Positions 2,499 through 35,419 of a DNA stretch of 64,000 nt are shown in pieces. This DNA is from Desulfurivibrio dismutans. Lineage in GTDB: Bacteria; Desulfobacterota; Desulfobulbia; Desulfobulbales; Desulfurivibrionaceae. A model generated the notes under the pieces. The model did not search any database. It worked only from the letters and a program-made list of their open reading frames with translations, and was not told the origin of the DNA. Location of the stretch: positions 248,001 to 312,000 of the forward strand of contig NZ_JARGDQ010000003.1 of assembly GCF_029210385.1 (NCBI RefSeq). The letters run 5' to 3'. A program made the position numbers and the translations under genes. The stretch's first letter is position 1. Each line of letters opens with the position of its first letter.

Positions 2499-2627
2499 AT
2501 AACCTTGCAGCGCCCGGTTATTAATCATTAAAGTGCTGCACGAAACCTGTAAAACACCAAGGTTAACGTTTACGCCATCGAAACTGACGGACGCCAACCA
2601 CCCACCAGCCTGACGAAAGGAGCAACC

Positions 2628-4565
2628 ATGGCCATCGACACCAGCATTAAGATCCTGCTCGTTGAAGACGCCGGCACCATGCGCAAAATGGAGGCCAAAA
2701 TCCTGGGCCAGGTCGGCTTCAATAATATTGTGGAAGCGGTGGACGGCCAGGACGCCGTGGCCAAGCTGGAAGCCGGGGAAGAGGTCGGCCTGGTAATCAG
2801 CGACTGGTCCATGCCCAACATGGACGGCCTGGAACTGGTGCAATGGCTGCGCGGCCAGGAGAAATTCAATGATATTCCCTTTTTGATGGCCACCGGCCAT
2901 GGCGACAAGGAATACGTGGCCAAGGCCATTGAGGGCGGTGCCAACGGGGTGGTGGCCAAACCCTTCACCCCCGCCGAGTTACAGAGCGCCATCGAGAAGG
3001 CCTTCGGCCTGGAGCAGGAGGAGGCGCCCAAGGTGGACGAAGGCCCCAAAGTATCCAGCGAAGGCAAGGTGCATCTCAAGCTGGCCCATATCCAGATCAC
3101 CGATCATCTGGCCCTGGGGGTGCTCAAGCACTGGATCGACACCGGCCGGGAAACGCCGGTCCACTTTACCCTGGAGACCAAGTGCATGGGCAGCTGGAAC
3201 CCGGTCCAGGGGGCCCTGGAAAGCTCCGAGGTGGACGGCGCCTTTATTCTGGCCCCGGCAGCCATGGATCTGTTCAGCTACGATGTGCCGCTCAAGCTGG
3301 TGCTCTTTGCCCACCGCAACGGCAGCATCTGTGTGCGCAACCGCCAGGGCAAGTACATCAAGCCTTACCAGCAGTTTTTCAAACACAAGACCTTTTACAT
3401 CCCGCACAAGATGTCCATCCACAACATGCTGGCCCATATGTACTTCACCCAGATGGGGCTCAAACCCGGCGTGGCCGGCAAAGAGGCGGTGAACGTGCTG
3501 TTTGACGTGGCCCCGCCGGTGGCCATGCCCCAGTTTTTGAAGGACAACCCCGAAGCCAGCGGCTTCCTGGTGGCCGAACCCATCGGCAGCCGGGCCATTG
3601 CCGCCGGCATTGCCGAAAAGCAGTTTCTCTCCAGCGAGATCTGGGAGCAGCACCCCTGCTGCGTGGTGGTCTTCCGGGATGAGATAATCGACCAATACCC
3701 GGAAGCAGTCCAGGAATTCACCGATCTGGTGGTCAAGGCCGGCCGCTCCATCAAACAGGATATCGACCAGTCGGCCCAGATCGCGGTCCACTTTCTCGAC
3801 CCGGAAAAAAGCATCGGCCTGGAACCGGCCCTGCTCAAAAATGTGCTCTCCGACCCCGCCGGCATCGTATACGACGATCTCTACCCGGTTAAGGAAGATC
3901 TGGAGACCATCCAGGATTACATGGTCAACAAAATGGAAATCGGTCGGACCATCGACCTCAATACCTTCATCGATACCCGCTTTGCCGCCAAGGCTTGCGG
4001 CAGTGATGCCGACCGCTCCGCCGCCCGGGAAGGCGGCCAGCGCAGCGGGGCCCTGAAACTGGAAGAGTTTAAAGAAAAACAGCAGCTCACCAGCCGCGAA
4101 GGCAAATACCTGGTCTTCAGCCTGGGCAGTGAACGGTACGGTATCGGCATCCTGGATGTCAAAGAGATCATCGGCCTGATGGAAATTCACGAATTGCCCC
4201 ACATGCCGTCCTTTTTCAAGGGAGTTATCAACCTGCGCGACCGGGTGATCCCGGTGATGGATCTGCGCCTTAAATTCGGCATGGAATCGGCTGCCTACAA
4301 CGAACGGACCTGCATCATCATCGTGGAGATCTCCGGGGTACGCGGCTCCACCCTGACCGGCATCATTGTCGATTCAGTCTCCGAGGTGGTCAACGTCAAA
4401 GACGACCAGGTGGAAGACGCCCCCTCCTTCGGCACCGGAGTGGATCAGAACATGATCCTGGGCATGGCCAAGCTCAAGGAAGGGGTGACCATCCTGCTGG
4501 ATATCGACCGCCTGATGCACACCCAGGAAGTGGTGGAACTGGGCGCCGTCGAGGAGATGTTTTAA
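2628..4565 (+). CDS. Receiver / NMT1-SsuA-like binding domain / CheW fusion protein
   Basis: A 645-residue cytoplasmic protein in three parts. Residues about 7-125 are a response-regulator receiver with phospho-acceptor Asp59 (VISDWSMPN) and a conserved Lys in VAKPF. Residues about 145-445 resemble periplasmic binding proteins of the nitrate/sulfonate/NMT1 type but carry no signal peptide. Residues about 485-640 form a CheW domain (GKYLVFSLGSERYGIGI ... INLRDRVIPVMDL). The middle domain shares ITDHL, GSW, HRNGS and an IW..H.CCV block with the SBP encoded at 12804-13829, so the two are paralogous. CheW links chemoreceptors to CheA. A cytosolic ligand-sensing coupling protein is inferred. No other che gene is present in the window. 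Confidence 0.85.
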   Translation: MAIDTSIKILLVEDAGTMRKMEAKILGQVGFNNIVEAVDGQDAVAKLEAGEEVGLVISDWSMPNMDGLELVQWLRGQEKFNDIPFLMATGHGDKEYVAKAIEGGANGVVAKPFTPAELQSAIEKAFGLEQEEAPKVDEGPKVSSEGKVHLKLAHIQITDHLALGVLKHWIDTGRETPVHFTLETKCMGSWNPVQGALESSEVDGAFILAPAAMDLFSYDVPLKLVLFAHRNGSICVRNRQGKYIKPYQQFFKHKTFYIPHKMSIHNMLAHMYFTQMGLKPGVAGKEAVNVLFDVAPPVAMPQFLKDNPEASGFLVAEPIGSRAIAAGIAEKQFLSSEIWEQHPCCVVVFRDEIIDQYPEAVQEFTDLVVKAGRSIKQDIDQSAQIAVHFLDPEKSIGLEPALLKNVLSDPAGIVYDDLYPVKEDLETIQDYMVNKMEIGRTIDLNTFIDTRFAAKACGSDADRSAAREGGQRSGALKLEEFKEKQQLTSREGKYLVFSLGSERYGIGILDVKEIIGLMEIHELPHMPSFFKGVINLRDRVIPVMDLRLKFGMESAAYNERTCIIIVEISGVRGSTLTGIIVDSVSEVVNVKDDQVEDAPSFGTGVDQNMILGMAKLKEGVTILLDIDRLMHTQEVVELGAVEEMF

Positions 4566-4573
4566 CCGGGTGG

Positions 4574-5605
4574 CTAATGCTGGTAGGAAAAACTGAAGGC
4601 GGTGAAAAAATCGGGCGATGGCTGGCCCTCAAACTCCCGCCCCCGTGCGATATTGGTCAGGGCGAACTTGACCTTACGGTAAGAGATGACCAGGCCGTAC
4701 TGCAGGTCAAAGACCACCGTTTTGCGGGAAACCCGGTGACTGCTGCGAAAGGTATTGCCATCCAGAAATATGTTACGCCCCACCAGCCGTATCTCACCAC
4801 CGGCAAAGAAATATCCCTGCACCTTTGAGGTTTTGACAAAATAACCGGCCCCCGGCAGGCTGGGGCGGATTCGGGGCGGCCCGTTATCATTACCCAAACC
4901 TTTACCCAGGCGCCAGGTCAGGCCTCCGGCCAGGTGGGTGGCCACAGTCCCCAAGGCCAGGCCGGCGTGAGGAACAAGATCCACACCCGCCCGACCAGAC
5001 TCCGCCAGTGAATAACGCCATTGCCGGTCCCAATACAGATTAACGGTGAATTCATTGCGCAGCTGATGGTCCCACCCTTCGGGCCGGTCAGCGGAGATGA
5101 CTTCGGAATGCCACCAGGTCTGCACGTCCCGGGCTCGAGCCCATGGTCCGACCACCCCCAACTGGAGTTCAAAGGAACCGACCATGCCGGTACCCGGTTC
5201 CTCCCCGGAAACCACCCGCACCGCCCCCAACCCCAAATAAAGATAACCGGCATAGGGGCGCTCATCCGTCTGCAGATGGCTGACGCTAATATCAGACGGA
5301 GTATAAATATTCTGCCCGATGGCAATACTGGAACGCCATAATTCCTGGTCGGTATCAAGGGAGAACCACGGCATCAACTCGGCGGTTCGGCTGACCCAGT
5401 CATCTCTGCTTTTTTCGGAATAATAAGAAAAACGACTGCCATGGGTAAAGTGGCGATCGGCGTTGTGCAGCACGTCGTTTTCCATCACCACGGTAAAAAT
5501 ACCGGAGTTTTCCGCATGAGCCAGTCGCCCTCCCCAAAACGCCAGCAAAAGAGCAACAACGGCGAGCAGCAAAGCCGCCTGTAATTGTTTATGTTGTTTT
5601 GCCAT
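4574..5605 (-). CDS. LpxR-family outer-membrane lipid A deacylase-like protein (DUF2219)
   Basis: A 343-residue protein with an N-terminal signal peptide (QAALLLAVVALLLAFWGG then AHA before the mature part) followed by a beta-rich sequence typical of a 12-strand barrel. The family motif MENDVLHNADRHFTHGSR near the mature N-terminus and the WWHSEV...GWDHQLRNE region correspond to the parts of LpxR carrying active-site Asn/Asp and His residues. LpxR removes the 3'-linked acyloxyacyl chain of lipid A. Substrate here is inferred from family only. The internal Met was chosen because AGGA precedes it and a signal peptide follows. It converges on the upstream fusion gene with eight bases between stops and no terminator. 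Confidence 0.8.
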   Translation of the reverse strand: MAKQHKQLQAALLLAVVALLLAFWGGRLAHAENSGIFTVVMENDVLHNADRHFTHGSRFSYYSEKSRDDWVSRTAELMPWFSLDTDQELWRSSIAIGQNIYTPSDISVSHLQTDERPYAGYLYLGLGAVRVVSGEEPGTGMVGSFELQLGVVGPWARARDVQTWWHSEVISADRPEGWDHQLRNEFTVNLYWDRQWRYSLAESGRAGVDLVPHAGLALGTVATHLAGGLTWRLGKGLGNDNGPPRIRPSLPGAGYFVKTSKVQGYFFAGGEIRLVGRNIFLDGNTFRSSHRVSRKTVVFDLQYGLVISYRKVKFALTNIARGREFEGQPSPDFFTAFSFSYQH

Positions 5606-5779
5606 CAAAAATCCTGGTTGGGCGCCATTTATCCGGTTAATAAATATCCACTGGCCAGGTTGCTTCTGAGTAAAAAATACCCAAAAAAGCAAAGTAAATC
5701 CCGGCGCCAGTTGTCAACGCCACCCCATGCCAGAAAACTGTTTCGCATTAACAGCGAGATGAAAATACTTTTGTGCACT

Positions 5780-9521: not shown

Positions 9522-11159
9522 CTACAGGCGCAGTACCGGCTCACCCTGCCACAGTTCCGCCCGCAAAACGTTTATCGCTTCGTCGGCCAGGTAATCGTCG
9601 AAGTTCATTCTTTTATCGATGATGCCGTTGGGGGTGATTTCGATGATCCGGTTGGCGGTGGTGGCCACCAGATGATGGTCGTGGGAGGCGAAGAGGATTA
9701 TTTCCGGGAAGGCGATCAGCCCGTTGTTGAGGGCGGTGATGGATTCCAGATCCAGGTGGTTGGTGGGTTCGTCCAGGATCAGGGCATTGGCCCCGCTGAG
9801 CATCATCCGGGCCAGCATGCAGCGGACCTTCTCGCCGCCGGAGAGGACGCTGGTTTTTTTCAGGGCCTCCTCGCCGGAAAACAGCAGCTTGCCCAGAAAA
9901 CCCCGGGCGAAACTTTCCCCCTCATTAGGCGGGGTGTACTGGCTCAGCCACTCCACCAGGGTCAGGTCCTTGGCGAAATAGGCGTTGTTGTCCTTGGGGA
10001 AGTAGGAGGTGGACATGGTCACCCCCCAGCGGAATTCGCCCCGATCCGGACTTAATTCCCCGGTCAGGATCTGAAAGAGGGTGGTCTTGGTCAGGGTGTT
10101 GGCCCCGATGAAGGCGATCTTGTCGCCCTTGTGGACGGTCAGGCTGAAATCGTTGAGTACCGTCACCCCTTCCAGCTCCTTGCCCAGCCCCTTGATCTCC
10201 AAAATGATATCGCCGCAGGGCCGCTCCGGCTTGAAGAGCACGAAGGGGTATTTGCGCGAGGAGGTCGGCATGTCCTCGATGGTCAGCTTGTCCAGCAGCT
10301 TTTTGCGGGAGGTGGCCTGCTTGGCCTTGGAGGCGTTGGAGGAAAAACGCTGGATGAATTCGGTCAGCTCCTTGGCCTTGGCGGTGGTCTTGCGGTTTTC
10401 GTCCTGTTTCTGCTTGAGAAAGAGCTGGCTGGCCTGATACCAGAAGTCGTAGTTGCCCACGTAAGTCCGGATTTCGCCGAAATCGATATCGGCGATGTGG
10501 GTACAGACCTGGTTGAGAAAATGGCGGTCATGGGAAACGATGATCACCGTGTTCTGGAAGCGGAAGAGGAAATCCTCGAGCCAGGTGACGGACTTGAGGT
10601 CCAGGTGGTTGGTGGGCTCGTCCAGCAGCAGGACATCGGGGTTGCCGAACAGGGCCTGGGCCAGCAGGACCCGGACCTTGTCGCCGTCTTCCAGTTCCTT
10701 CATCTTGCGGTCCCGGAACGCTTCGGGGATTCCCAGCCCCTTGAGCAGCACCCCCACCTCCGCTTCCACCTCGTAGCCGTTCATTTCGGCAAACTCGGCC
10801 TCAATCTCACCGGCCAGGATGCCGTCGGCTTCCGACATTTCGGCCTGGGCGTAAAGGGTTTCCCGCCGACTCATCAACTCGAAGAGCCGGGCATGGCCCA
10901 TGACCACAGTGTTGAACACCGTTTCTTCATCGAAGGCGAAATGGTCCTGGCGTAGGACCGCAATCCGCTCCCTGGGGCCGACGATGACCTCGCCCTTGTC
11001 CGGCTCCTTCTCCCCGGCCAGAATTTTGAGAAAGGTCGATTTGCCCGCCCCGTTGGCCCCGATCAGCCCGTAACAGTTGCCGGGAGTGAACTTGATATTG
11101 ACGTCTTTAAAGATAACCCGCTTGCCGTAAGCAAGGGTAATATTGGCAGTGCTGATCAT
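9522..11159 (-). CDS. ABC-F family ATPase (YbiT/YkpA type)
   Basis: A 545-residue protein with two ABC domains and no membrane segments. Domain 1 has a good Walker A (GLIGANGAGKST) and Walker B (LLLDEPTNHLDL). Domain 2 has LSGGEKVR and LILDEPTNHLDL, but its Walker A reads GANTLTKTT, lacking the usual glycine before lysine; I recall similarly altered sequences in the YkpA/YbiT subgroup. The Asn/Ser-rich linker SSNASKAKQATSRKK is typical. ABC-F proteins act on ribosomes, not in transport. The start is taken where homologous sequence begins, and its ATG overlaps the TGA of the transporter ATPase gene upstream, so it is the last cistron of that operon. Confidence 0.9.
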   Translation of the reverse strand: MISTANITLAYGKRVIFKDVNIKFTPGNCYGLIGANGAGKSTFLKILAGEKEPDKGEVIVGPRERIAVLRQDHFAFDEETVFNTVVMGHARLFELMSRRETLYAQAEMSEADGILAGEIEAEFAEMNGYEVEAEVGVLLKGLGIPEAFRDRKMKELEDGDKVRVLLAQALFGNPDVLLLDEPTNHLDLKSVTWLEDFLFRFQNTVIIVSHDRHFLNQVCTHIADIDFGEIRTYVGNYDFWYQASQLFLKQKQDENRKTTAKAKELTEFIQRFSSNASKAKQATSRKKLLDKLTIEDMPTSSRKYPFVLFKPERPCGDIILEIKGLGKELEGVTVLNDFSLTVHKGDKIAFIGANTLTKTTLFQILTGELSPDRGEFRWGVTMSTSYFPKDNNAYFAKDLTLVEWLSQYTPPNEGESFARGFLGKLLFSGEEALKKTSVLSGGEKVRCMLARMMLSGANALILDEPTNHLDLESITALNNGLIAFPEIILFASHDHHLVATTANRIIEITPNGIIDKRMNFDDYLADEAINVLRAELWQGEPVLRL

Positions 11160-11941
11160 GCTGGTTCCTTGGGGTTTGATGTCATAATGCCTTCTACCAA
11201 AGCGCGGTGGATGGCCTCGCGGGCTTGGGCGGCTTCGGGGCTGAGCAGGTTGCGGGGGCGGGGCTGGTTGATGGTGATGATTTCCTTGATGCGGCCCGGG
11301 CGGGGGGTCATCACCGCCACCCGGTCGGCCAGCAGCAGGGCCTCGTTGAAGTCGTGGGTGACGAAGATGATGGTCATCTCCTTTTCCCGCCACAGGCGGA
11401 TCAACTCCGCCTGCATCTTGTGGCGGGTCATGGCGTCCAGGGCGCCGAAGGGTTCGTCCATGAACAGCACCTGGGGCTCCACCGCCAGGGCGCGGGCCAG
11501 AGCCACCCGCTGCTGCATACCGCCGGAGAGTTCCCGGGGGTAGCGGTCCACCGCCTCGTTGAGGCCCACCAGGGCGATCAGCTCCAGGGCCAGCCGACGC
11601 CGCCGGGCCGCCGGCACCCGGGCCAGTTCCAGGCCGAGTTCCACGTTGCCGCGCACCGTGCGCCAGGGAAAGAGCCCGTACTCCTGCTGGATCATCACCG
11701 CCTCGGGGCCGGGCATCCGCACCGGGCAACCATCCAGGCTGATACTCCCGGCGGTGGGGGTATCGAAACCGGCCAGCAGGTTGAGCAGGGTGGTTTTGCC
11801 GCAGCCGTTGGGCCCCAGCAGACAGAGCAGCTCCCCCTGGTAAACGTTGAGCTCCAGCCCGGCCATGGCCTCCACCTCCTCGGCCCCCAGCCGCCGCCGG
11901 AAACGCTTGCCCACCCCGCTGGCTTCAATTTTCACCTTCAC
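11156..11941 (-). CDS. ABC transporter ATP-binding protein, nitrate/sulfonate/taurine type
   Basis: A 261-residue ATPase with Walker A GPNGCGKTT (about residue 43), Q-loop region IQQEYGLFPWRTV, signature LSGGMQQRVALARAL and Walker B VLFMDEPFGALD. It is close to the SsuB/TauB/NrtD group by length and motifs. It energises the permease encoded just upstream, with which it overlaps by four bases, and overlaps the ABC-F gene downstream in the same way. The imported substrate is not evident; the family covers nitrate, sulfonates, taurine, bicarbonate and pyrimidine precursors. Confidence 0.93.
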   Translation of the reverse strand: MKVKIEASGVGKRFRRRLGAEEVEAMAGLELNVYQGELLCLLGPNGCGKTTLLNLLAGFDTPTAGSISLDGCPVRMPGPEAVMIQQEYGLFPWRTVRGNVELGLELARVPAARRRRLALELIALVGLNEAVDRYPRELSGGMQQRVALARALAVEPQVLFMDEPFGALDAMTRHKMQAELIRLWREKEMTIIFVTHDFNEALLLADRVAVMTPRPGRIKEIITINQPRPRNLLSPEAAQAREAIHRALVEGIMTSNPKEPA

Positions 11942-12807
11942 CAGCGGCTCCTTACTCGTCTTTCCGTCCAGCTCATCAACCGGTCCAGGCTGAGACCCAG
12001 CAAGCCCACCAGCAGCATGCCGGCAATCACCTGGTCGGTGCGCAGGAAGTTGCGGGCGTCGATGATAAAATAGCCCAGGCCCGACTGGGCCCCCAGCATC
12101 TCACCGGCCACCAAATGAATCCAGCCCACCCCCAGGGCAATGTGCAGCCCCACGGTAATATAGGGAAAGGCGGCGGGGATCACCACCTTGTGCAGCAGGT
12201 CCCACTCGGAGCTGCCGAAGTTGCGGGCCACCCGAATATAGACCCGGTCAACGCCGCGCACGGCGGCGATGGTGGCCAGCAGCATGGGGAAAAAACTGGC
12301 GATAAAGATAATGAAGATGGCCGGCAGATCACCGATCTTGAACCACAGCACGGCCAGGGGAAACCAGGCCACCGGCGAAATCGGCCGCAGCACCTGGATC
12401 AGCGGGTCGAAGGCCTGGTGCAGGCGGGAATACCAGCCGAAAACCAGGCCCAGCGGCAGGGCCACCAGGGCCGCCAGCAGGTAACCGACGCCGAAGCGAT
12501 AAAGACTGACCGCCACATGCTCCAGCAGCATGCCGCTGCGGGCCACCTCCAGCAGGGCCAGCAGCACCGCCGCCGGCCCCGGCAGCAGGTAGTCGCTGCC
12601 GTACCAGGCCGCCGCCGCCTGCCACAGCAGCAGAAAAGCGCCCAGGGCCAGCAGGGGAAAAAACAGCCGCTCGCCGGGCAGGCAGGGAACCCAGGTGACC
12701 CGGCGCCGCCGGGAGCTGGGTTTGCTCAGGCACCGGGCCGGTGTGCGCTCGGCGGCAGATGCCGGCGCCGGCTTTTCCGGCGGCGCTTGGGGTTTGGCAG
12801 ACATCAA
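11938..12807 (-). CDS. ABC transporter permease, nitrate/sulfonate/taurine type
   Basis: A 289-residue BPD_transp_1 permease. An unusually Pro/Ala/Arg-rich cytoplasmic N-terminus of about 45 residues precedes the first helix (FFPLLALGAFLLLWQAAAAW). The cytoplasmic coupling loop is visible as RNFGSSEWDLLHKVVIPAAFPYITVGL (EAA-like motif, about residue 195). About six membrane helices are expected. It overlaps both neighbours by four bases, supporting a single complex with the SBP and ATPase. Confidence 0.92.
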   Translation of the reverse strand: MMSAKPQAPPEKPAPASAAERTPARCLSKPSSRRRRVTWVPCLPGERLFFPLLALGAFLLLWQAAAAWYGSDYLLPGPAAVLLALLEVARSGMLLEHVAVSLYRFGVGYLLAALVALPLGLVFGWYSRLHQAFDPLIQVLRPISPVAWFPLAVLWFKIGDLPAIFIIFIASFFPMLLATIAAVRGVDRVYIRVARNFGSSEWDLLHKVVIPAAFPYITVGLHIALGVGWIHLVAGEMLGAQSGLGYFIIDARNFLRTDQVIAGMLLVGLLGLSLDRLMSWTERRVRSRW

Positions 12808-13829
12808 GGATTGGCCTCCACCGCCGCTCGAGCAAAGGCCGGTTCCAGGTAGGTAGCAATATCAACTTCCCGCCGGCTCAGGCCGGAGCGCAGCATCAAC
12901 TCCTGGGTGGCGGCAAAATCAGCCTGGCGGGGCATGAGATCATGGTAGGTAACCCGGTCCGGCGGACGGGTCAGCACGTGTTCAATAACCTCCGGCCGCT
13001 GGCCCAGGTAAGGGACCGACAACTCCGCCGCCCGGCGGCGGTTGGCCTCGATGAAACGGCCGGTGGCGGTGAGCCCGGCGGCCAGTTCCGCCACCGCTTC
13101 GGGGTTTTTATCGATAAACTCCTGTCGCATATTGAGCACGCAGCAGATGTGATCCGGCCAGATATCCTTGGACAAAATCAACACCCGTCCCACCTGCTGG
13201 AGCTCCGCCTGGCCGCCGAAGGGTTCGGCCACGATAAAGCCGTCGATGCGGCCGCCGGCCAGGGCCTGGACCATCTCCGGCGGCGCCATATCGAGATAAC
13301 GCACGCTCTCTGGCGGCAGCCCGCGCTCGGCCAGCAGCCGACGCAGCAACAGGTAGTGGGTGGAAAGACGGCTGGGGATGGCGATGGTCTTACCGGCCAG
13401 GTCACCAACCTCGGCCACCCGGTCGCCGGCGGCCACGGTGAGCACGCTGCCGTTGCGGTGGCCAAGCAGCACCGCTTGCACCGGGCTGCCCTGGCCGCGC
13501 AGGGTCAGGCCCAGGGGGGTGAGCAGGAAGGCGGCATCGATGGCCCCGGCTCGCAAGGCCTCGGCGGCCTCCGGCCAGGAGCCGAACTTCACCGGCTCGA
13601 TGGCCAGGTGGACAAAATCGTAATGGGCGTGGGCAATCAGCAGCAGGTGGTCGGTGATGGGCAGGTAGCCCAGCTTCAGGGGCACCCGGCCGGCAGCCTC
13701 CCGGGCCGACCGCTCACCGCAGCCCGTCAATAGCAGCCCCGAGCTCAGGCCCAGGCCGCCGACCACCATGGCCCCCAGGCCCAGCCGGGTAAATTGTCGT
13801 CGATTGATCCGCCGCATCCGCATCCTCAT
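12804..13829 (-). CDS. Tat-exported lipoprotein substrate-binding protein, NrtA/SsuA/NMT1 type
   Basis: A 341-residue binding protein. The N-terminus carries a twin-arginine motif (NRRQFTRLG), a hydrophobic stretch and a lipobox (LLTGC), implying Tat export followed by lipidation. The mature part shows LGYLPITDHL, GSW, DAAFLL, GHRNGS and IWPDHICCV, typical of nitrate/sulfonate/NMT1-like SBPs and shared with the middle domain of the fusion protein at 2628-4565. Several Met codons occur at the start (MRMRM); the first was kept but the exact start is uncertain. It heads the operon; an 85-base gap separates it from the antiporter operon upstream. Confidence 0.9.
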   Translation of the reverse strand: MRMRMRRINRRQFTRLGLGAMVVGGLGLSSGLLLTGCGERSAREAAGRVPLKLGYLPITDHLLLIAHAHYDFVHLAIEPVKFGSWPEAAEALRAGAIDAAFLLTPLGLTLRGQGSPVQAVLLGHRNGSVLTVAAGDRVAEVGDLAGKTIAIPSRLSTHYLLLRRLLAERGLPPESVRYLDMAPPEMVQALAGGRIDGFIVAEPFGGQAELQQVGRVLILSKDIWPDHICCVLNMRQEFIDKNPEAVAELAAGLTATGRFIEANRRRAAELSVPYLGQRPEVIEHVLTRPPDRVTYHDLMPRQADFAATQELMLRSGLSRREVDIATYLEPAFARAAVEANP

Positions 13830-13914: not shown

Positions 13915-15705
13915 TCAGGTGACCCAAAAGAGGAGCGCCATCAGCACCGCCACAGTGAAGATGGCGGTGGAGGCGATGGTAAACAGGGAGCGGCTGAAGG
14001 TTTCCAGGAAGCGCTGTTCAGCGCCGTCGGGGCCGTCGATTTTGGCCCCGGTCAACTGCCACAGGGGTTTGACCACCAGCAAGCAGAGGCGGGCCGGGCC
14101 GTCGATGAAGAAACGGTTGAGGCGGCGGGGCACTTCTTCGGCCAGGGTGGCCTGGCCCCAATTATTGATCTTGGTCATCCCCTTCTGCATGGCCAGCAGA
14201 AAGAGCCGGCCGCCCAGCCGGTAGAACCAGTCCATATCCAGGCTGAGCTTGGCCTTGGGGGCCATCTTACTGACAAAGAGGTAGAAGCCGACCCCGGTGA
14301 AGAGCAGGATCTGGATCACCTCCGCCAAATGGTAAGCGGTATAGGGGTTGAAGGGCGCCTCATAGGGCAGCATGTTGTACAGATAAGGGGTATAAACCCC
14401 AATCAGCAGACAGAGGAAGGCGGCAACGCCCATGGCCAGCTGCATGTGCAGGGGCGGGTCGGCAGCCTTGTTCCAGGTTTCCTCGGAACACTTGTTCTCG
14501 CCGAACCAGACCACGTAAGGGATCTTGATGCCCACCGAGAGAAAGGTGCCCACCGAGGCCAGCAGCATCAGGTAGGCCGCCCAGTAATGGGAGGCGTCGA
14601 AGGAGCCGGCCACCACCATACTTTTGCTGACATAACCACTGAGCAGCGGAAAACCGGAAATCGACAGCCCGCCGATCACCGTAAAAAACAGGGCCATGGG
14701 CATCTTTTTGTACAGCCCGCCCAGCTCGGTGGCCTTGCTCTTGCCGGTCATGTACAGTACCGAACCGACCCCCATGAACAACAGGGCCTTATAAAGGATA
14801 TGGGCAAAGGCATGGGCGATGGCACCGTTGAGCGCCAAAGCCGTACCGACCCCCACCCCGGCCACCATGAAGCCCACCTGGCTGATGATATGGTAGGAAA
14901 GCAGCCGCCGCACGTCATTGCTGAGCAGGGCGTAGATAACCCCATAGAGGGTCATGATAACCCCCAGCACAATCAGAATCTCCATGCCGGCAAACCCCCG
15001 GCACAGGGCGTAAACCGCCGTCTTGGTGGTAAAGGCGCACATGAACACCGCGCCGCTGACCGTAGCCCGGCTGTAGGCATCGGGCAGCCAGGCGTGCAGC
15101 GGCGGCACGGCGGCGTTGAGGATCACCCCGATCATGATCAGCCAGACCGGCAGGGTGGGGTTGACCACGTCGAACTGATTAAAGCTCAGGTCCCCGGTGG
15201 CCTGGTAATGCAGCACGATACCGGCCAGCAGGGCCAGACCGCCGGCGGTATGGACCAGCAGGTAGCGGTAACCGGCGGCCAGAGCGCCGGGGGTGCCCCG
15301 GAACCAGACCAGGAAGGTGGAGGAAAAGGCCATCACCTCCCAGAAGAGGAAGAGCACCAGCAGGTCACCGGCAAAAATAACCCCCAGCGAACCGGCCACG
15401 TACAACCAGGCCGACATATGCTCGTAATCGTTTTCGACATGCAGGCCGTAAAGGGTGCCGATGATGCACATCAGGGTCATGATGTAGGCAAAGACCAGGC
15501 TGAGCTGGTCCACCCGGCCGAAGGTCAACTCCCAGTTGAGGAAGGGAAAGACCCCGAAGACCCCCTGCTCCATCTGCAGCACGGCGGCAAAGGCCAGTAC
15601 CGGCACCAGCAGCAAAAAGGGCTTGCGCGCCACCCCCTTCACCATGGGCAGCACCAGGGCCCCGATAATCAGCACCAGCGCTGGATGAAACCAAAATTCC
15701 GTCAC
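13915..15705 (-). CDS. Mrp/NuoL-like antiporter subunit (third large subunit)
   Basis: A 596-residue polytopic membrane protein of the ND5/MrpA-D family. The core motif HAWLPDAYSRATVSGAVF is followed by FTTKTAVYAL, retaining the transmembrane lysine of antiporter-like subunits. A long C-terminal part contains an amphipathic stretch (MQKGMTKINNWGQATLAEEV) and a last helix (IFTVAVLMALLFWV), reminiscent of NuoL. It would translocate H+ or Na+ within the Mrp complex. It is the last gene of the operon, 60 bases after the small membrane protein. Canonical Mrp complexes have two such subunits; this operon has three. Confidence 0.88.
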   Translation of the reverse strand: MTEFWFHPALVLIIGALVLPMVKGVARKPFLLLVPVLAFAAVLQMEQGVFGVFPFLNWELTFGRVDQLSLVFAYIMTLMCIIGTLYGLHVENDYEHMSAWLYVAGSLGVIFAGDLLVLFLFWEVMAFSSTFLVWFRGTPGALAAGYRYLLVHTAGGLALLAGIVLHYQATGDLSFNQFDVVNPTLPVWLIMIGVILNAAVPPLHAWLPDAYSRATVSGAVFMCAFTTKTAVYALCRGFAGMEILIVLGVIMTLYGVIYALLSNDVRRLLSYHIISQVGFMVAGVGVGTALALNGAIAHAFAHILYKALLFMGVGSVLYMTGKSKATELGGLYKKMPMALFFTVIGGLSISGFPLLSGYVSKSMVVAGSFDASHYWAAYLMLLASVGTFLSVGIKIPYVVWFGENKCSEETWNKAADPPLHMQLAMGVAAFLCLLIGVYTPYLYNMLPYEAPFNPYTAYHLAEVIQILLFTGVGFYLFVSKMAPKAKLSLDMDWFYRLGGRLFLLAMQKGMTKINNWGQATLAEEVPRRLNRFFIDGPARLCLLVVKPLWQLTGAKIDGPDGAEQRFLETFSRSLFTIASTAIFTVAVLMALLFWVT

Positions 15706-25076: not shown

Positions 25077-25460
25077 TCAGCTTCGCACCCCGGCTTCGGC
25101 ATGGGCAATATGGATTTTTTCCACCAGTCCGCTAAGTTCCACCGGCTTCAGGCAATATTCACTGGCCCCGGCGGCAATTCCCTGCATGCCGGCGGTGATC
25201 GAGGCATGGCCGCTGAGCATGATCACCCCGGTGGTCGGCCACTGTTTTTTTATTCGGGCCAAGCAGTCAAGCCCGTCAACATCGGGCAGCATCACATCCA
25301 GGATCACCACCTGGGCCGGCTGCCGGGCCATGGCCGCCAGCGCTTCATGGCAATCGGCGGCGGCGCGCACGCCGAAACCGCGGAAGCGCAGGCGCTGGGC
25401 TAAAGTTTCGCGGAAATCCAGTTCATCATCGACGACCAGCAATTGCAACGGTTCAAACAT
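25077..25460 (-). CDS. Single-domain response regulator
   Basis: A 127-residue receiver with no output domain. Acidic pocket VVDDELDF, phospho-acceptor Asp in VVILDVMLPDVDG (near residue 55), LSGHASI and the C-terminal Lys in YCLKPVE are all present. It overlaps the upstream PEP-synthase-like gene by eight bases, so the two are translated together and probably work together. The partner kinase is not obvious; a complete kinase lies 7 kb away in the same island. Confidence 0.92.
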   Translation of the reverse strand: MFEPLQLLVVDDELDFRETLAQRLRFRGFGVRAAADCHEALAAMARQPAQVVILDVMLPDVDGLDCLARIKKQWPTTGVIMLSGHASITAGMQGIAAGASEYCLKPVELSGLVEKIHIAHAEAGVRS

Positions 25461-28188
25461 TTTTCACCTTCGTCGGAGTAAGCAGCGACTCCAGGTCACG
25501 GTTTATTTTTTGCCGGTAATGGGCCACCATGGCCGGATCCTCCATAACCATGTCGATCTGCCGGGTGTGGATCAGCAGATAACCCAGTACCTTAAGGCGC
25601 TCCAGCAGAAAAGGCGCCTCCATCTTTTCCAGCCGGGCGGTCAGGGCGTCTTCCTTGCGGGAGACCCGGAAATCGTAACGGCCCAGCACCTCCCCGATCA
25701 GCTCCAGCCGCAGCAGGCGCCGACGGTCGTCGGCGGCCCCGCCTTTGAACTGGAAGCTGACGTAGTTTTCGGTGAGCAAATCGGAGATGTGGCTTTCCAC
25801 CAGGGCGAAGTGATAACCCAGGCGGATACTCATGTTGCAGAAATTGCGGGAAATCAAAAAATAGCTCCGGGCACTGAGGTTGGAGCGCACCGCCGGTTCC
25901 AAATCCGGGTTCATGGTGGAACGGAAGAGGATGGCACCAAAGCCGCGCAGGTTCACCGGCGGCGGTCCCTGCCAGGGGAAAGCGGTCATGCCCCGCCACA
26001 GGGCCAGCATGGGGGCGGAAACGATATGCTCCAGGCGGATGAAGGATTCCTGAGGGTCGTGCGCCGGGGCAAAACCGTCCTCCAGGTCAATCACCCACCA
26101 GGTAAAGGGGGACTGATCCACCAGTTGCTTGGCCGCTCCGGTGGCAAAGCCCTGGCGATCGCCGAAGGCAAACATCTCCGCCACCGCCTTTTCGTGGCAG
26201 TAGCGGGTGATATCATGGAGGGTGCGGCAATTTTCGGGCCGAAAGAAGGGCGAGGCGGGATCAATCAGGTTCAGCGGCGTAACCAGGGCGGCGACCTGGC
26301 TCAGCACCTGATGCACCGGACTGCCGACCATCAACTTGGGCGGCGGCACCGCCCGGGACAGCAAATCCTCCCGCCGGCCGGCATGGACCCGCAATCCGGT
26401 GGCATCCACCGTCACCTCCTGGCCGGGGGCCAGTTCGGCCATGGCTCCGGCCAGGCCGAAAATGGCCGGCACCCCGAACTCCCGCGCCACGGTGGCCAGG
26501 TGGGCCGCGCTCTCTCCGGTTTCACTGATAATCGCCGCCGCTCGCGGCAGCACCACAGCCCATTCCGGCAGGGGATGAGCCACCAGCAACACCGCTTGCC
26601 GGGGAAATTGCAACAGATCCTCATCCCGCCGCACCGCAAACACCGATCCTGCCGCCACCCCGGAAACTACACAGCTCCCACCCCGCAGCAGTAAATCGGA
26701 CGTCGGCGGCGTAGTGCTCCCGGCCCGCCAATCGTTGGTCTCAGCGGCCTCATTTACCGCCTGATCCGGCGGCCGGGATTCATCCCCGGCTTTCGCACCC
26801 CGGCTGTTCGCCGGCGCCGTTTCGCCGCCGGTGCCACTCAAACCCGCGCCCCCCAAAGGGCGAGACTGCAGCAGGTAAACCCGGCCATCATGCCCCAGCG
26901 ACCATTCGATATCCTGGGGGGCGCCAAAGTGCGCCTCCAGCCGGAGGGCAATGGCGGCCATTTCACTCAGTTGCGCCGAGGTCAGCAACTCGCCCACCGG
27001 CGCTTCCCCTATATCGGGTGAATTGAACTTCCCGTCGGTTTCGAGCGATCCGTTGTCGGCGGTGGGCAACACCTTGATGGTGGGTTCATTGTCGGCGTCC
27101 GTCGGGGCCGCCTCCAGGGACGCCCCCCGCGCCACCCGGAAATGCCGGGAGGCCGCCCGACCGCTGACCACCTGGTCGGCCAGCCCCGGCGCGGCGGTGA
27201 TCTCCACCCAGTCGCCGCGCAAATCCGCCGGCGGCCGGCTATACATCACCCCGCTGACCACTCCGTCCACCATGGCCAGGCAGCCGACACACATGATCAC
27301 ATCCTGGTGCCTGAAGCCGCGCTGCAGGCGGTAAATCATGGCCTGGGGCCGATACTTGCCGGCCACGATCTCCTTGTAGGCGGTAAGCAGGGAAGCAGCA
27401 TCAACCTGCAAACGGGTGCGATACATGCCGGCAAAGGAACTGCGGCTGCTGTCCTCACCCAAGGCGCTAGAGCGCATGGCCACCAGGATTTCTTGTTTTT
27501 CCTCACCGGCCAGGCGAGCATGGTGTTCCAGAATCTGCTCTTCCAGATCGGCGGGCAAAGGGGCCGCGACAATCAGGCGTTCGATGGCGGCGCTGGCCGC
27601 GTAAACATCAGCCAGGCGATCGGAATTAAGGGAGGTTAGACGGCGGTTGATTTCCACCTGCAGGTTGCTGGCGGCAAAGAAGTGGCGGGTGGCAGCGGCG
27701 GTAATAACAAAGCCTTCGGGGGTGGGCAGGCCGATGCGGTTACGGATCTCGCCCAGGTTGGCCATTTTCTCCCCGGCCTCATCGGCCCGATGCCGGTCCA
27801 GTTGGGCCAGCGGCAGGATAAAATCACGCCCGGCCAGTTCGGGCTCTCGGGTCATGATCTCTTCCAGTTCGCCGGTAATCCCCTGAAACGGCGGCCGCAG
27901 CCGCCCGTAGTGCTCACCCCCCAGGGACTCCAGCAGATGGATCATCTTGAGCACATTGGCCCCCAGGGCGGTGCAGTGCCCGCGGACAAAGGCCATACTG
28001 AAGGGCCGGCCGCCGGCCAGAGCCTGGTCGATTTCAGCCATCAGCTCCAGGGCATTATTGTTGGCCGTCAGCAAAGAACGAAAGTTCCGATACTGACGAC
28101 GGAAAGCCACCTTCAGCTCCTCCCCGGACAGCACCGGTCGCCTCTCTTCCAACCCCAGCCATTCCTTAAGGCGCCAAAAAAGGCTCAT
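25453..28188 (-). CDS. PEP-synthase-like protein with swivelling phosphohistidine domain, non-TIM C-terminus
   Basis: A 911-residue protein. Residues about 1-130 are a helical N-terminal region. Residues about 140-460 match the PPDK/PEP-synthase nucleotide-binding domain (NLGEIRNRIGLPTPEGFVIT, SSALGEDSSRSSFAGMYRT, EWSLGHDGRVYLLQSRPL). Residues about 520-600 form the mobile phosphohistidine domain (GESAAHLATVAREFGVPA with the His in register). The C-terminal 300 residues do not look like the PEP/pyruvate TIM barrel. True PEP synthase activity is therefore doubtful; phosphotransfer signalling or an unknown phosphoryl transfer is inferred. It is coupled to a receiver gene. A low-complexity linker occurs near residues 460-500. 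Confidence 0.78.
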   Translation of the reverse strand: MSLFWRLKEWLGLEERRPVLSGEELKVAFRRQYRNFRSLLTANNNALELMAEIDQALAGGRPFSMAFVRGHCTALGANVLKMIHLLESLGGEHYGRLRPPFQGITGELEEIMTREPELAGRDFILPLAQLDRHRADEAGEKMANLGEIRNRIGLPTPEGFVITAAATRHFFAASNLQVEINRRLTSLNSDRLADVYAASAAIERLIVAAPLPADLEEQILEHHARLAGEEKQEILVAMRSSALGEDSSRSSFAGMYRTRLQVDAASLLTAYKEIVAGKYRPQAMIYRLQRGFRHQDVIMCVGCLAMVDGVVSGVMYSRPPADLRGDWVEITAAPGLADQVVSGRAASRHFRVARGASLEAAPTDADNEPTIKVLPTADNGSLETDGKFNSPDIGEAPVGELLTSAQLSEMAAIALRLEAHFGAPQDIEWSLGHDGRVYLLQSRPLGGAGLSGTGGETAPANSRGAKAGDESRPPDQAVNEAAETNDWRAGSTTPPTSDLLLRGGSCVVSGVAAGSVFAVRRDEDLLQFPRQAVLLVAHPLPEWAVVLPRAAAIISETGESAAHLATVAREFGVPAIFGLAGAMAELAPGQEVTVDATGLRVHAGRREDLLSRAVPPPKLMVGSPVHQVLSQVAALVTPLNLIDPASPFFRPENCRTLHDITRYCHEKAVAEMFAFGDRQGFATGAAKQLVDQSPFTWWVIDLEDGFAPAHDPQESFIRLEHIVSAPMLALWRGMTAFPWQGPPPVNLRGFGAILFRSTMNPDLEPAVRSNLSARSYFLISRNFCNMSIRLGYHFALVESHISDLLTENYVSFQFKGGAADDRRRLLRLELIGEVLGRYDFRVSRKEDALTARLEKMEAPFLLERLKVLGYLLIHTRQIDMVMEDPAMVAHYRQKINRDLESLLTPTKVKNV

Positions 28189-30615: not shown

Positions 30616-31044
30616 TTACCAGGCTTTACTGCCGATAATTTCCTTAACCTGCTTTTCACTGGCCGCCGTGACCAACACCATCTTCCGGTCGCCGGCTTCC
30701 TTGATTTTCCTGGTCAACTCTTCGATATCCGCCGGTTTTTCCAGCAGATCCATGGCCCCCATCTTCATCGCCTGCACCCCCTTCTCCACCGTGGCCTTGC
30801 CGGTGAGCAAAATCACCTGGAGCTGGGGGTTGCGCTTCTTAATTTCCTCCAACGCCGCCAGCCCGTCCATGCCCGGCATCTGCAGGTCCAGGACAATGGC
30901 GTCGTAAGAATCCACATCCTCGCGCTGCAGGGCCTCAGCGGCGGAAGTGGCGGTACTCACCTCCATCTGCCGGGAGCGCATCCGGGCTGCCAGGGTTTCC
31001 ACAAACTCCGCCTCATCATCAATTAATAAAATTTTTTCTGCCAT
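30616..31044 (-). CDS. Single-domain response regulator
   Basis: A 142-residue receiver. LIDDEAEF supplies the acidic pocket, AIVLDLQMPGMDG the phospho-acceptor Asp (near residue 53), LLTGKAT the switch Thr and LEKPADIEEL the Lys. A short C-terminal extension of about 20 residues (MVLVTAASEKQVKEIIGSKAW) follows the receiver. There is no output domain. It is downstream of a truncated kinase gene in the same orientation, which suggests a phosphorelay. Confidence 0.92.
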   Translation of the reverse strand: MAEKILLIDDEAEFVETLAARMRSRQMEVSTATSAAEALQREDVDSYDAIVLDLQMPGMDGLAALEEIKKRNPQLQVILLTGKATVEKGVQAMKMGAMDLLEKPADIEELTRKIKEAGDRKMVLVTAASEKQVKEIIGSKAW

Positions 31045-31118
31045 GACCTGTCCTCCTTAGTAAGGGCTCGTTATCCTTATGGCATGATTGGGTATACACC
31101 GCTGCGGCCACCGCGCAA

Positions 31119-31920: not shown

Positions 31921-32298
31921 TTAGTGACCCTGGTGAGAGGTTGCCAGCAACTCACTGATCCGGCCAAGCAATTGATTGATATCCACCGGTTTAAGCAGAA
32001 AATAGTCCGCGTGTCCAGCTTCCCCGATACCGCTTTCGAAAGTGCTGAGTGAACCATGTCCACTCATGAAAATGAATCGCAAACCGGGAAAGCCCGCCAC
32101 CAATTGCTTTTTCAATTCGACACCGCTGATGCCCGGCATTTTGAGGTCGATCACCGCCACATCATAGGTTTGCCGGTGGGCCAGTTCCAGGGCCTGCCGG
32201 CCGGAGGTCGCCCAGTCGGCGGTTATCCCGCGCAGCTGCAACCTTTCGGCCAGAGCCGAGACCAGTTCCTCCTCGTCGTCAACCAGTAAAATCCGCAT
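31921..32298 (-). CDS. Single-domain response regulator
   Basis: A 125-residue receiver beginning MRILLVDDEEELV, with phospho-acceptor Asp in VAVIDLKMPGISG (near residue 51), MSGHGSL and LLKPVDINQL. It overlaps the 3' end of the complete histidine kinase gene by 20 bases and has AGGAACACC as ribosome site, so it is the likely cognate receiver of that kinase. Confidence 0.93.
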   Translation of the reverse strand: MRILLVDDEEELVSALAERLQLRGITADWATSGRQALELAHRQTYDVAVIDLKMPGISGVELKKQLVAGFPGLRFIFMSGHGSLSTFESGIGEAGHADYFLLKPVDINQLLGRISELLATSHQGH

Positions 32299-34045
32299 GG
32301 TGTTCCTCGCCGGTTTCGGCATTTTCTTTGCTCCGCAAAGGCAGGGTGATGAAAAATCTGGTGCCGGCGCCGGCCATGCTTTCCACCCGGATCCGGCCCT
32401 GCAGCTCGCGCACCAGGCCGTATGTGACGAACAGCCCCAGGCCGGTGCCTTCCTCCTTGCTCTTGGTGGAGAAAAATGGTTCAAAAACCTTCTTCAAATC
32501 CGCTTCGGCGATTCCGCAACCGTCATCGGTGACGGTGATCAGCAGATGCTCGGGATCCGGGCGGCTGCCGGTGATATAGAGATGTCCCCCATCCTCCATG
32601 GCGGCAAAGGCATTGCCCACCAGGTTGAGAAAAACCTGCTGCAGCTTGTTGCGGTCGCTGCTCAGGGCGGGCAGTTCCGAGTCAATTTCCACCCCGACGA
32701 TGATATTGCGGTGGGCCGCCTCTTTACCGTGAAACTCCAGGACCTCCCGCACCACCTCAGCCAGCTCGACCTGTTCCAGTTTAATCTCGCCGGGCCGGGC
32801 AAAACCCAGCAGGCGCCGTGTAATACCGGAGCAGCGGGCCACCGCCCGATGAATCGATTCCAGTTGGCTCAGCAGTTTCTCCTTGGGCGGCGGTTCTTTC
32901 CCGGCCCGGGTCAACAGGTCGGCCAGCAGGCCGGCCTTTTCATTGATGATGGCCAGGGGGTTGTTGATCTCATGGGCCACCCCGGCGGCCAGCCGCCCCA
33001 GGGAAGCCAGCTTGTTGGCCCGGGCCGCCTCACGCAAGGCGGTGGCCCGTTCCCGATCGGCCCGGTAGATATCCCCCACCAGGTTGGTGGCCACCCCCAG
33101 GGTCACCAGCACAATCAGCAACACCGCGCCGGCCAGAAAAAGAACCACCATCACCCTGGTCGAAATCCAAGGTCGCAACAGTTCGGCCTTCTCACCGATA
33201 GCCAGCAGAATAAACGGGGAGCCGGGGATATAGGCATACCCCATGACCAGCTCACGCCCCTGCCGGTCCTGGACCGTAACCACCCGGGTATCTTCGGCAT
33301 AGGGCGGAATCGCCAGGGGAAAGCGGTCCAGCACCTCGCCATGGTTCAGGGTCGGGGTCTGAATAACCCCTTCCAGATTCACCAAAAATGAATCCCCAAA
33401 ACTACTCTCCCGGATGTGGGCCAACTGCTCGTTGAACCAGACGGTATTCAAAGTGGCCCGGAGCACGAAAAAGGAGCCATCCTCCTTTTCCCGTTTCACC
33501 GCGATCACCATGTGCGGCTCTTCCCTGAAACCAAGGTAGACGTCACTAACATGACTGCCGGCGGCCACCACTTCGCGGAACCAGGGCTCGTCACGGTAAT
33601 CCCGGTCTTTAAGGGCGTAAGGTCCGATATAGCGAATCTGCCGCCCGGCGGCATTAAACAATCCCAGATCGGTAAAACCGCCGATGGAACCGCTCAGGTT
33701 GGCCAGAATACCGGCCAGCCGCCGATCATCGTTAAGGTCGGCAAAGCCGTACTCCCGGACCACGAACTGCAGGGCCGCCTGCCGCTCTTCCAGGAAGAAG
33801 GCCACTGTTCGCTTGGTGTTGGAGACCAGCCGATCGGTGCGCAGCACTATCTCGTTTTCGCTGTACTGGCCGGTCACCCGGTAGTCAAACCAGGCCAGGG
33901 CCAGCAGAGGCAGCAGGGCCACGCAGAGCATCAGCACCACCGCCCGTTTCCAGATCCGGCGAAAGTCGAAGTGGGGCCGGTCGTTGTCAGCGCCGCTGGC
34001 GCCCTGGTCCCAAAACAGCGGTTTTTTTAACGGCCACCTGTTCAT
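32279..34045 (-). CDS. Membrane histidine kinase with Cache-type sensor
   Basis: A 588-residue sensor kinase. One helix near residues 35-52 and another near 295-318 bracket a periplasmic dCache-like domain (TDLGLFNAAGRQIRYIGPY, WFREVVAAGSHVSDVYLG, HMVIAVKRE). A short linker leads to HisKA (GVAHEINNPLAIINEKAGLL) and HATPase_c with N-box QQVFLNLVGNAFAAM, DDGCGI and GTGLGLF. All catalytic motifs are present. Cache domains usually sense small organic ligands. Translation is coupled to the next receiver gene by overlap and to the upstream kinase-like fusion gene by a six-base gap. Confidence 0.94.
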   Translation of the reverse strand: MNRWPLKKPLFWDQGASGADNDRPHFDFRRIWKRAVVLMLCVALLPLLALAWFDYRVTGQYSENEIVLRTDRLVSNTKRTVAFFLEERQAALQFVVREYGFADLNDDRRLAGILANLSGSIGGFTDLGLFNAAGRQIRYIGPYALKDRDYRDEPWFREVVAAGSHVSDVYLGFREEPHMVIAVKREKEDGSFFVLRATLNTVWFNEQLAHIRESSFGDSFLVNLEGVIQTPTLNHGEVLDRFPLAIPPYAEDTRVVTVQDRQGRELVMGYAYIPGSPFILLAIGEKAELLRPWISTRVMVVLFLAGAVLLIVLVTLGVATNLVGDIYRADRERATALREAARANKLASLGRLAAGVAHEINNPLAIINEKAGLLADLLTRAGKEPPPKEKLLSQLESIHRAVARCSGITRRLLGFARPGEIKLEQVELAEVVREVLEFHGKEAAHRNIIVGVEIDSELPALSSDRNKLQQVFLNLVGNAFAAMEDGGHLYITGSRPDPEHLLITVTDDGCGIAEADLKKVFEPFFSTKSKEEGTGLGLFVTYGLVRELQGRIRVESMAGAGTRFFITLPLRSKENAETGEEHHADFTG

Positions 34046-35323: not shown

Positions 35324-35419
35324 ATTCTTTTCACCCAAGCAAAATATTAACCCGCCGGCCTGATTCAGTTAGCTAACGAAAGCGTTGACCAGGACCAATA
35401 ACTACTGACATAACCTGCA

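Follow-up and report, generated by a model that had tools for sequence, protein, structure and literature searches.

A receiver, a solute-binding protein and CheW in one chain

The gene at 2628-4565 of the window, the 64-kb stretch of Desulfurivibrio dismutans DNA analysed here, encodes a 645-residue protein in which a receiver (REC), an NrtA-like solute-binding protein (SBP) domain and a CheW domain follow one another. The features of the gene are as follows.

2618..2622 (+), AGGAG, likely ribosome-binding site, five bases 5' of the ATG (by eye)
2628..4565 (+), coding sequence of the REC - NMT1_2/NrtA-like SBP - CheW fusion, 645 aa; start and length are alike in relatives
2652..2996 (+), receiver domain, CheY-like, aa 9-123 (Pfam)
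2802-2804 (+), codon of the phospho-acceptor Asp59, in the receiver domain
3063..3998 (+), SBP domain, NrtA-type fold with a Cys-Cys/His motif, aa 146-457 (Pfam, fold model and alignment)
3999..4103 (+), linker, aa 458-492 (low model confidence)
4104..4526 (+), CheW domain, aa 493-633 (Pfam)

All three domains score over the Pfam gathering cut-offs (Response_reg, residues 9-123, E 6e-25; NMT1_2, residues 146-382, E 8e-23; CheW, residues 493-633, E 3e-36), as expected from the preliminary description, which had read this gene as a receiver/binding-protein/CheW fusion. The binding-protein fold extends past the Pfam NMT1_2 boundary, to about residue 457. AlphaFold models the whole chain at pLDDT 87 and pTM 0.80, with pLDDT 96 for the SBP domain and 53-55 at residues 461-490 of the linker before CheW, the length of which differs among relatives. 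Because the receiver occupies the N-terminus, the fusion has no signal peptide and its binding-protein domain is cytosolic, as had also been proposed. The protein does not carry the marks of an ABC transport SBP, namely a signal or lipoprotein anchor and a permease and ATPase of its own, there being no ABC genes adjacent to it. A gene for an LpxR family outer membrane protein (4574-5692, -) is convergent with the fusion gene.

Distribution and domain architectures

The middle domain has a match in 21 of the 27 genomes of the window's family (two matches are cut by contig ends), and window-type copies in these genomes are at least 77% identical over this domain. The open reading frames (ORFs) around the family matches share the same start and a similar length, except for L021, L026 and L027, which are cut by a contig end. 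At the level of the order, 39 of 257 genomes match the SBP profile at 1e-20, three of them (G101, G124 and G132) through weak, more distant proteins only; in a phylum draw of 394 genomes, requested at 90% completeness, 22 match at 1e-60. A scan of named genomes returned 58 loci; most of the record titles read Deltaproteobacteria or Desulfo-, and Thiotrichales, Ignavibacteria, Bacteroidetes and Spirochaetes also appear among them. Judged by ORF length, 36 of these loci are of the long type and 17 encode a REC-SBP protein of ~460 residues, a form carried by named isolates (Desulfoluna); the rest comprise L121 (747 residues), L094 (short) and three loci cut by a contig end. Pfam analysis of 41 chosen members recovered the receiver and NMT1_2 in all 41 and CheW in 28, the 13 without CheW being the short ones, and in L121 a C-terminal HATPase_c_2 and STAS pair stands in place of CheW.

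The search across genomes that had been suggested for this architecture therefore finds both REC-SBP-CheW and REC-SBP in other lineages, and the recurrence of the three-domain protein in many genomes shows that it arose neither by chance nor as an assembly fusion. Since 17 of the 58 named-genome relatives have no CheW, the module also appears to work without it. Genome G251 (L132-L136, L153) has seven profile matches: one REC-SBP-CheW, four REC-SBP, one stand-alone-sized protein and one transporter SBP.

Receiver domain

The residue set of response regulators (acidic pair, phospho-Asp, Thr/Ser, Lys) is present in the fusion receiver. All 60 aligned relatives, a set that includes near-duplicates, share D14, D59, T89 and K111; at position 13, 43 of them have E and 17 have D. 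The best receiver match shown in NCBIfam is CheY, though under its cut-off. With the phosphorylation residues kept, the receiver looks able to be phosphorylated, and the identity of D59 throughout the alignment agrees with the initial proposal that Asp59 is the phospho-acceptor position.

Genomic context and linkage to chemotaxis

Besides the fusion itself, CheA, MCP and a second CheW have no match within the window. The preliminary description held that no CheA, MCP or CheY gene is nearby; this stands for CheA and MCP, but four further receiver-like reading frames (stop to stop) lie 20-30 kb from the fusion on the reverse strand (25080-25463, 30619-31056, 31924-32493 and 34055-35368), the first of single-domain size. 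Elsewhere, the genome encodes one CheA, followed by CheW, CheR and CheD (CheR and CheD by eye), eight MCP matches (one partial), FlhA and a CheV-type CheW-REC protein.

Neighborhood analysis covered 68 member loci, counting near-duplicates, with flanks that reach at most 6 kb and are often shorter. It places an MCP, CheA, CheW, CheR or CheB gene within 6 kb at 10 loci, and a same-strand adjacent MCP, CheA or CheR gene within 152 bp at seven (L092, L100, L106, L121, L128, L133 and L134), which amount to about five lineages in the REC-SBP tree. These neighbors were called with profiles built here, several of them confirmed by Pfam. The L133 gene row reads MCP-CheW-CheB-CheR-[REC-SBP], L121 is followed by CheA (with a receiver) and CheW, and the che operon of L128 has an ordinary composition. 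At the remaining 58 of the 68 loci there is no che gene within the flanks covered, and the window gene and its orthologues in L070-L090 have no che neighbor; L138 has an Hpt domain 3.8 kb away.

For seven linked rows among the 48 of the tree, the binomial probability is 5e-6 at a background of 1.4% and 0.003 at 4%, and for five of 48 it is 0.04 at 4%, both background rates being guesses from the number of che genes rather than measurements; shared ancestry also means that the counts are not independent of one another. The tree omits 19 aligned rows picked by eye, of which 18 share 85-100% identity with a row that was retained and the nineteenth, the short L094, shares 62%; the contig-end-truncated L123 and L124 lie outside the alignment.

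Within the order, CheA is encoded in 39 of 39 genomes with the SBP profile versus 164 of 218 without it (Fisher p 6e-5, uncorrected for kinship), and in 36 of 36 after removal of the three weak ones. Six of the 27 family genomes have no match, and five of these six have CheA; chemotaxis thus does not depend on the fusion, which is an accessory rather than a core component.

The CheW domain of a paralogue matches its array

Among the CheW proteins and CheV of its genome, the CheW domain of the window protein is closest to the CheW encoded in the operon of the only CheA match (59% identity), followed by the two other CheWs (55 and 50%) and CheV (25%). A second genome of the same genus, G002 (one contig), carries two fusions: copy B is orthologous to the window gene, with 92% identity, and copy A sits inside a chemotaxis operon, CheW-MCP-MCP-MCP-[fusion]-MCP-CheR-CheB-CheA-REC-CheD (CheD by eye), an arrangement similar to that in G026. 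In the REC-SBP tree, copy A of G002 and G026 groups with the window protein (100/97). The CheW domain of copy A, however, shares 83% identity with the stand-alone CheW that its operon encodes, against 47-52% with four other CheWs, and in the CheW tree it forms a clade with its operon's CheW (100/100). A topology that unites the CheW domains of the two copies was rejected (AU p 8e-28), the groups in this test having been named after the identities had been seen. Copy A was also considered as the sole CheW of its operon, a reading set aside on account of the stand-alone CheW at the operon start.

These relationships indicate that the sensor part was copied, with the CheW part apparently taking on, by replacement or conversion, the type of the adjacent array. 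Such an array-matched exchange would make little sense if the CheW domain did not dock in arrays, and the domain looks like an array-specific plug. Together with the paralogues in che operons, the matched CheW domain supports, from sequence, context and phylogeny, the original picture of a soluble protein of the cytosol connected to a chemosensory array. The exchange of the plug between two arrays of one genome constitutes a natural experiment on the array specificity of coupling proteins.

The binding domain and its cleft

Structurally, the middle domain has the NrtA-type fold. Its nearest solved structure is the S. aureus ABC binding protein 3un6 (Z 38.2), also its top PDB sequence match, followed by NrtA (2g29; Z 36.1, rmsd 2.0, 296 aligned), the CmpC regulatory domain (35.0) and CmpA (34.5). 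In the model the binding fold is intact. Sequence analysis identifies eight residues, W190, H229, H265, E317, W339, H342, C344 and C345, that are invariant in 43 of 43 aligned sequences (37 REC-SBP proteins, four stand-alone copies and two transporter SBPs) and that probably line one pocket. The preliminary description had allowed for loss of the binding cleft; at the sequence level, the cleft motifs are kept.

Conservation is also highest in the binding domain: across 29 long members with near-duplicates removed, the commonest residue has a mean frequency of 0.72 there, versus 0.675 in REC and 0.61 in CheW. This bears on a different view of the protein, as a CheV-like adaptor in which receiver and CheW act, in adaptation or as a phosphate sink, and the SBP domain is a ligand-free rigid spacer or protein dock. 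CheV-type proteins do join CheW and REC, the genome has one, and domain make-up by itself cannot show ligand binding; but against this view stand the high conservation of the SBP domain and the cleft motif that it has in common with exported transporter SBPs, and the existence of REC-SBP proteins without CheW and of an ECF-sigma-SBP fusion fits an input role. We regard the spacer view as quite improbable and favor the SBP domain as the ligand-binding input of the protein.

With respect to the ligand, nitrate was among those first suggested. The nitrate ligands of NrtA given in the available text of PMC13204499 are Trp102, Gln155, His196, Gly240 and Lys269. In a profile alignment to the CmpC domain, W190 and H265 match the Trp and the His, and all 43 aligned sequences have Cys (C345) at the Lys position; which of NrtA's numbered residues these correspond to was deduced, for the Trp, His and Lys, by aligning motifs with CmpC domains. 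Replacement of this Lys by Cys makes nitrate an unlikely ligand, and it was dropped as a candidate on this sequence change.

The Cys pair recurs in transport proteins. All four plasmid records examined, out of 18 (Ruminococcus, Thermomicrobium, Bartonella and Deinococcus), encode ABC SBPs that keep it, three as H-x-C-C and Ruminococcus without the His. Because the motif is kept in exported and cytosolic members alike, it can be argued that the sensor binds something like the transporter cargo. On the Ruminococcus albus plasmid (L148:5800-10538), the CC-motif SBP, permease and ATPase genes are followed by cooS, and on the three other plasmids a similar CC-motif transporter adjoins an acyl-CoA dehydrogenase gene. 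A single ligand could not be read from these neighbors, with CooS in Ruminococcus versus acyl-CoA dehydrogenase in Thermomicrobium, Bartonella and Deinococcus and none in common.

The cleft could also be that of a metal or thiol-reactive sensor, its Cys-Cys/His set binding Zn(II), another soft metal or reactive sulfur species. C344, C345, H229, H265 and H342 are identical in 43 of 43 sequences, and 3un6 is titled 'with zinc bound', although this zinc may stem from crystallisation and 3un6 has no equivalents of H342 and H160. One MCP adjoining each of L100, L106 and the L128 fusion has a CZB zinc domain, whereas the other neighboring MCPs scanned (L130, two more of L128, L133 and L134) have none. 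The ABC proteins of the window, in turn, are weakly similar to the SAO (Sec-assisted organometallic) transporter, under the model cut-offs. A metal or thiol ligand is best treated as a tentative possibility; it is compatible with a cytosolic ligand-binding input, the favored explanation, from which it differs solely in the ligand.

Neighboring genes with sulfur functions were considered as a further guide. Upstream of the REC-SBP-CheW gene in three loci lies a gene for a DsrC-like/cysteine-desulfurase fusion (L096:4097-5527, L098:2706-4274 and L101:4001-5482; the DsrC-like N-terminus and the cysteine-desulfurase-like aminotransferase were identified by Pfam on L096 and L098 only), and 13 of 58 loci, all close relatives, contain a rhodanese-type gene (Pfam on one member). 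A sulfur ligand was not adopted from this context, as these bacteria commonly carry sulfur genes and the rhodanese loci are closely related.

A related ABC transporter in the window

The window also encodes an ABC transporter with an NMT1_2 binding protein.

12804..13829 (-), Tat-type lipoprotein SBP (NMT1_2), possible partner in the same ligand pathway (signal by eye)
11938..12807 (-), ABC permease of the same transporter
11156..11941 (-), ABC ATPase of the same transporter

The lipoprotein SBP of this transporter (11156-13829, -) is 36% identical to the middle domain of the fusion, and the two are the only NMT1_2 matches of the genome. Fusion and transporter are ~8 kb apart in the window and ~7 kb apart in G002; this proximity is confined to one genus and so counts as one event. 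The arrangement fits a ligand shared by the two. An assignment of the ABC system as an SAO transporter was rejected, since none of the three proteins reaches the cut-offs of the SAO models; the taurine and nitrate models score about equal or better for the permease and ATPase, as does SsuA_fam for the SBP. Directly upstream of the lipoprotein SBP gene and on the same strand lies a gene for an Mrp/complex I type antiporter subunit (13915-15705, -), with further membrane subunits beyond it (by eye).

Comparison with known systems

Textbook accounts of chemotaxis usually center on transmembrane receptors as the sensors. A soluble route is represented by CheWS of Treponema denticola, a CheW fused to a CheR-like SAM sensor, called the first characterised CheW-fused chemotaxis sensor by its authors, who in the text available also count 30 further unstudied CheW architectures in Pfam 35 (PMC10653840); REC-SBP-CheW may be among these. 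As described there, CheWS, like the fusion, joins CheW to a soluble cytosolic ligand-binding domain and is present beside an ordinary CheW, and its sensor domain sits below the rings, where it may act on CheA (PMC10653840). By its Pfam domains, with CheW and a soluble ligand-binding domain in one chain, the fusion would belong to the same kind, the CheW-fused cytosolic sensors. Unlike CheWS, with its C-terminal CheR-like SAM domain, the fusion has a middle NrtA-like SBP domain and an N-terminal receiver, and Pfam finds no CheR-like domain in it at E up to 1. Thus, it appears to work like CheWS but is not CheWS. The preliminary description knew of no described function for this architecture: our literature search, at the level of titles and abstracts and among the matches listed, likewise found no publication on REC-SBP-CheW, but the broader kind has been described in CheWS.

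Other relatives share parts of the design. CheV likewise unites CheW and a receiver in one soluble protein, but in the order CheW-REC and with nothing else, which sets it apart from the REC-SBP-CheW fusion. CmpC and NrtC hold a cytosolic, SBP-like regulatory domain. This domain (9uai, 9uak, 8wm7) and NrtA (2g29) have the same fold as the fusion SBP (Z 33-36), but they are joined to an ABC ATPase, or exported, and are 18-20% identical to it by structural alignment; CmpC, unlike the fusion, shows no Cys-Cys in the alignment. Conversely, 3un6 and the plasmid CC-motif SBPs keep the CC motif as in the fusion, but are transport SBPs. AmiC-AmiR and NasS-NasT are similar pairs. In NasS-NasT, as far as the available text of PMC3795266 describes it, a cytosolic NrtA-like sensor without a signal sequence is paired with a receiver-containing output protein. 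That system, however, consists of two proteins, with an RNA-binding ANTAR output and the nitrate residues kept, whereas the fusion is one protein with a CheW output and the Lys changed to Cys. The fusion joins the ideas of CheWS, NasS-NasT and AmiC-AmiR in one chain.

Proposed mechanism

The fusion is likely a soluble chemosensory coupling protein with its own cytosolic input, which would let the cell steer by an internal metabolite or ion. Judging from context, domain identity and the domain swap, the CheW domain would place it in the CheA/CheW/MCP array, where it would dock next to an ordinary CheW. The SBP domain would close on a small cytosolic ligand, probably related, given the shared cleft motif, to what the homologous CC-motif ABC transporters import. 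Its opening and closing may shift the placement of the CheW domain and, as proposed for CheWS, alter CheA activity. Phosphorylation of the CheV receiver is thought to reset or bias the response. In the fusion, phosphorylation of Asp59 by CheA might do the same and provide feedback. The cell would in this way follow the level of an internal metabolite or ion alongside its MCPs. CheWS showed that intracellular input can reach chemotaxis via a soluble domain fused to CheW; the present family would be a second kind, spanning several lineages and built on a well-known bacterial ligand-binding fold, with a receiver for feedback.

The behavior under control might be another one run by such arrays (type IV pili, c-di-GMP or gene regulation) rather than flagellar taxis. 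L121, with HATPase_c_2-STAS instead of CheW beside a CheA that has a receiver, and L132 and L130, which HisKA kinases adjoin, point in this direction. On the other hand, the window genome has FlhA and a single CheA followed by CheW, CheR and CheD, and the L128 che operon is of the ordinary sort, and we consider a non-flagellar output unlikely for the coupling protein proposed here.

Other outputs and related loci

Beyond the REC-SBP-CheW proteins, the CC-type binding domain is found with a different output in the distant relative of G124 (L152:4275-5693, +), in which an ECF-sigma-like region (sigma regions 2 and 4) precedes the SBP; genes for a molybdopterin oxidoreductase, an Fe-S protein and a TM_HPP protein lie downstream. 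It is possible that this protein is a one-component sigma-factor sensor. A broader and rather speculative reading, which we hold to be doubtful, is that these proteins form a set of modular sensors with a Cys-Cys/His pocket, whose outputs are CheW, HATPase-STAS or an ECF sigma, whose CheW plug is exchanged to fit the array, and whose ligand, a soft metal or reduced sulfur, is shared with the CC-motif ABC transporters. If so, sulfur-cycle and other bacteria would steer by their cytoplasmic state.

G101 and G132 (L150:1990-17000 and L151:3-11381) contain large CheA clusters with an ABC transporter and an NMT1_2 SBP without the CC motif, as well as a ParA-like ATPase and a TauE family exporter (Pfam on seven proteins of L150 and two of L151). 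In L097, L105, L110 and L113, SBP-like ORFs lie 63-223 bp upstream of the REC-SBP genes, that of L097 being without a signal peptide (by eye).
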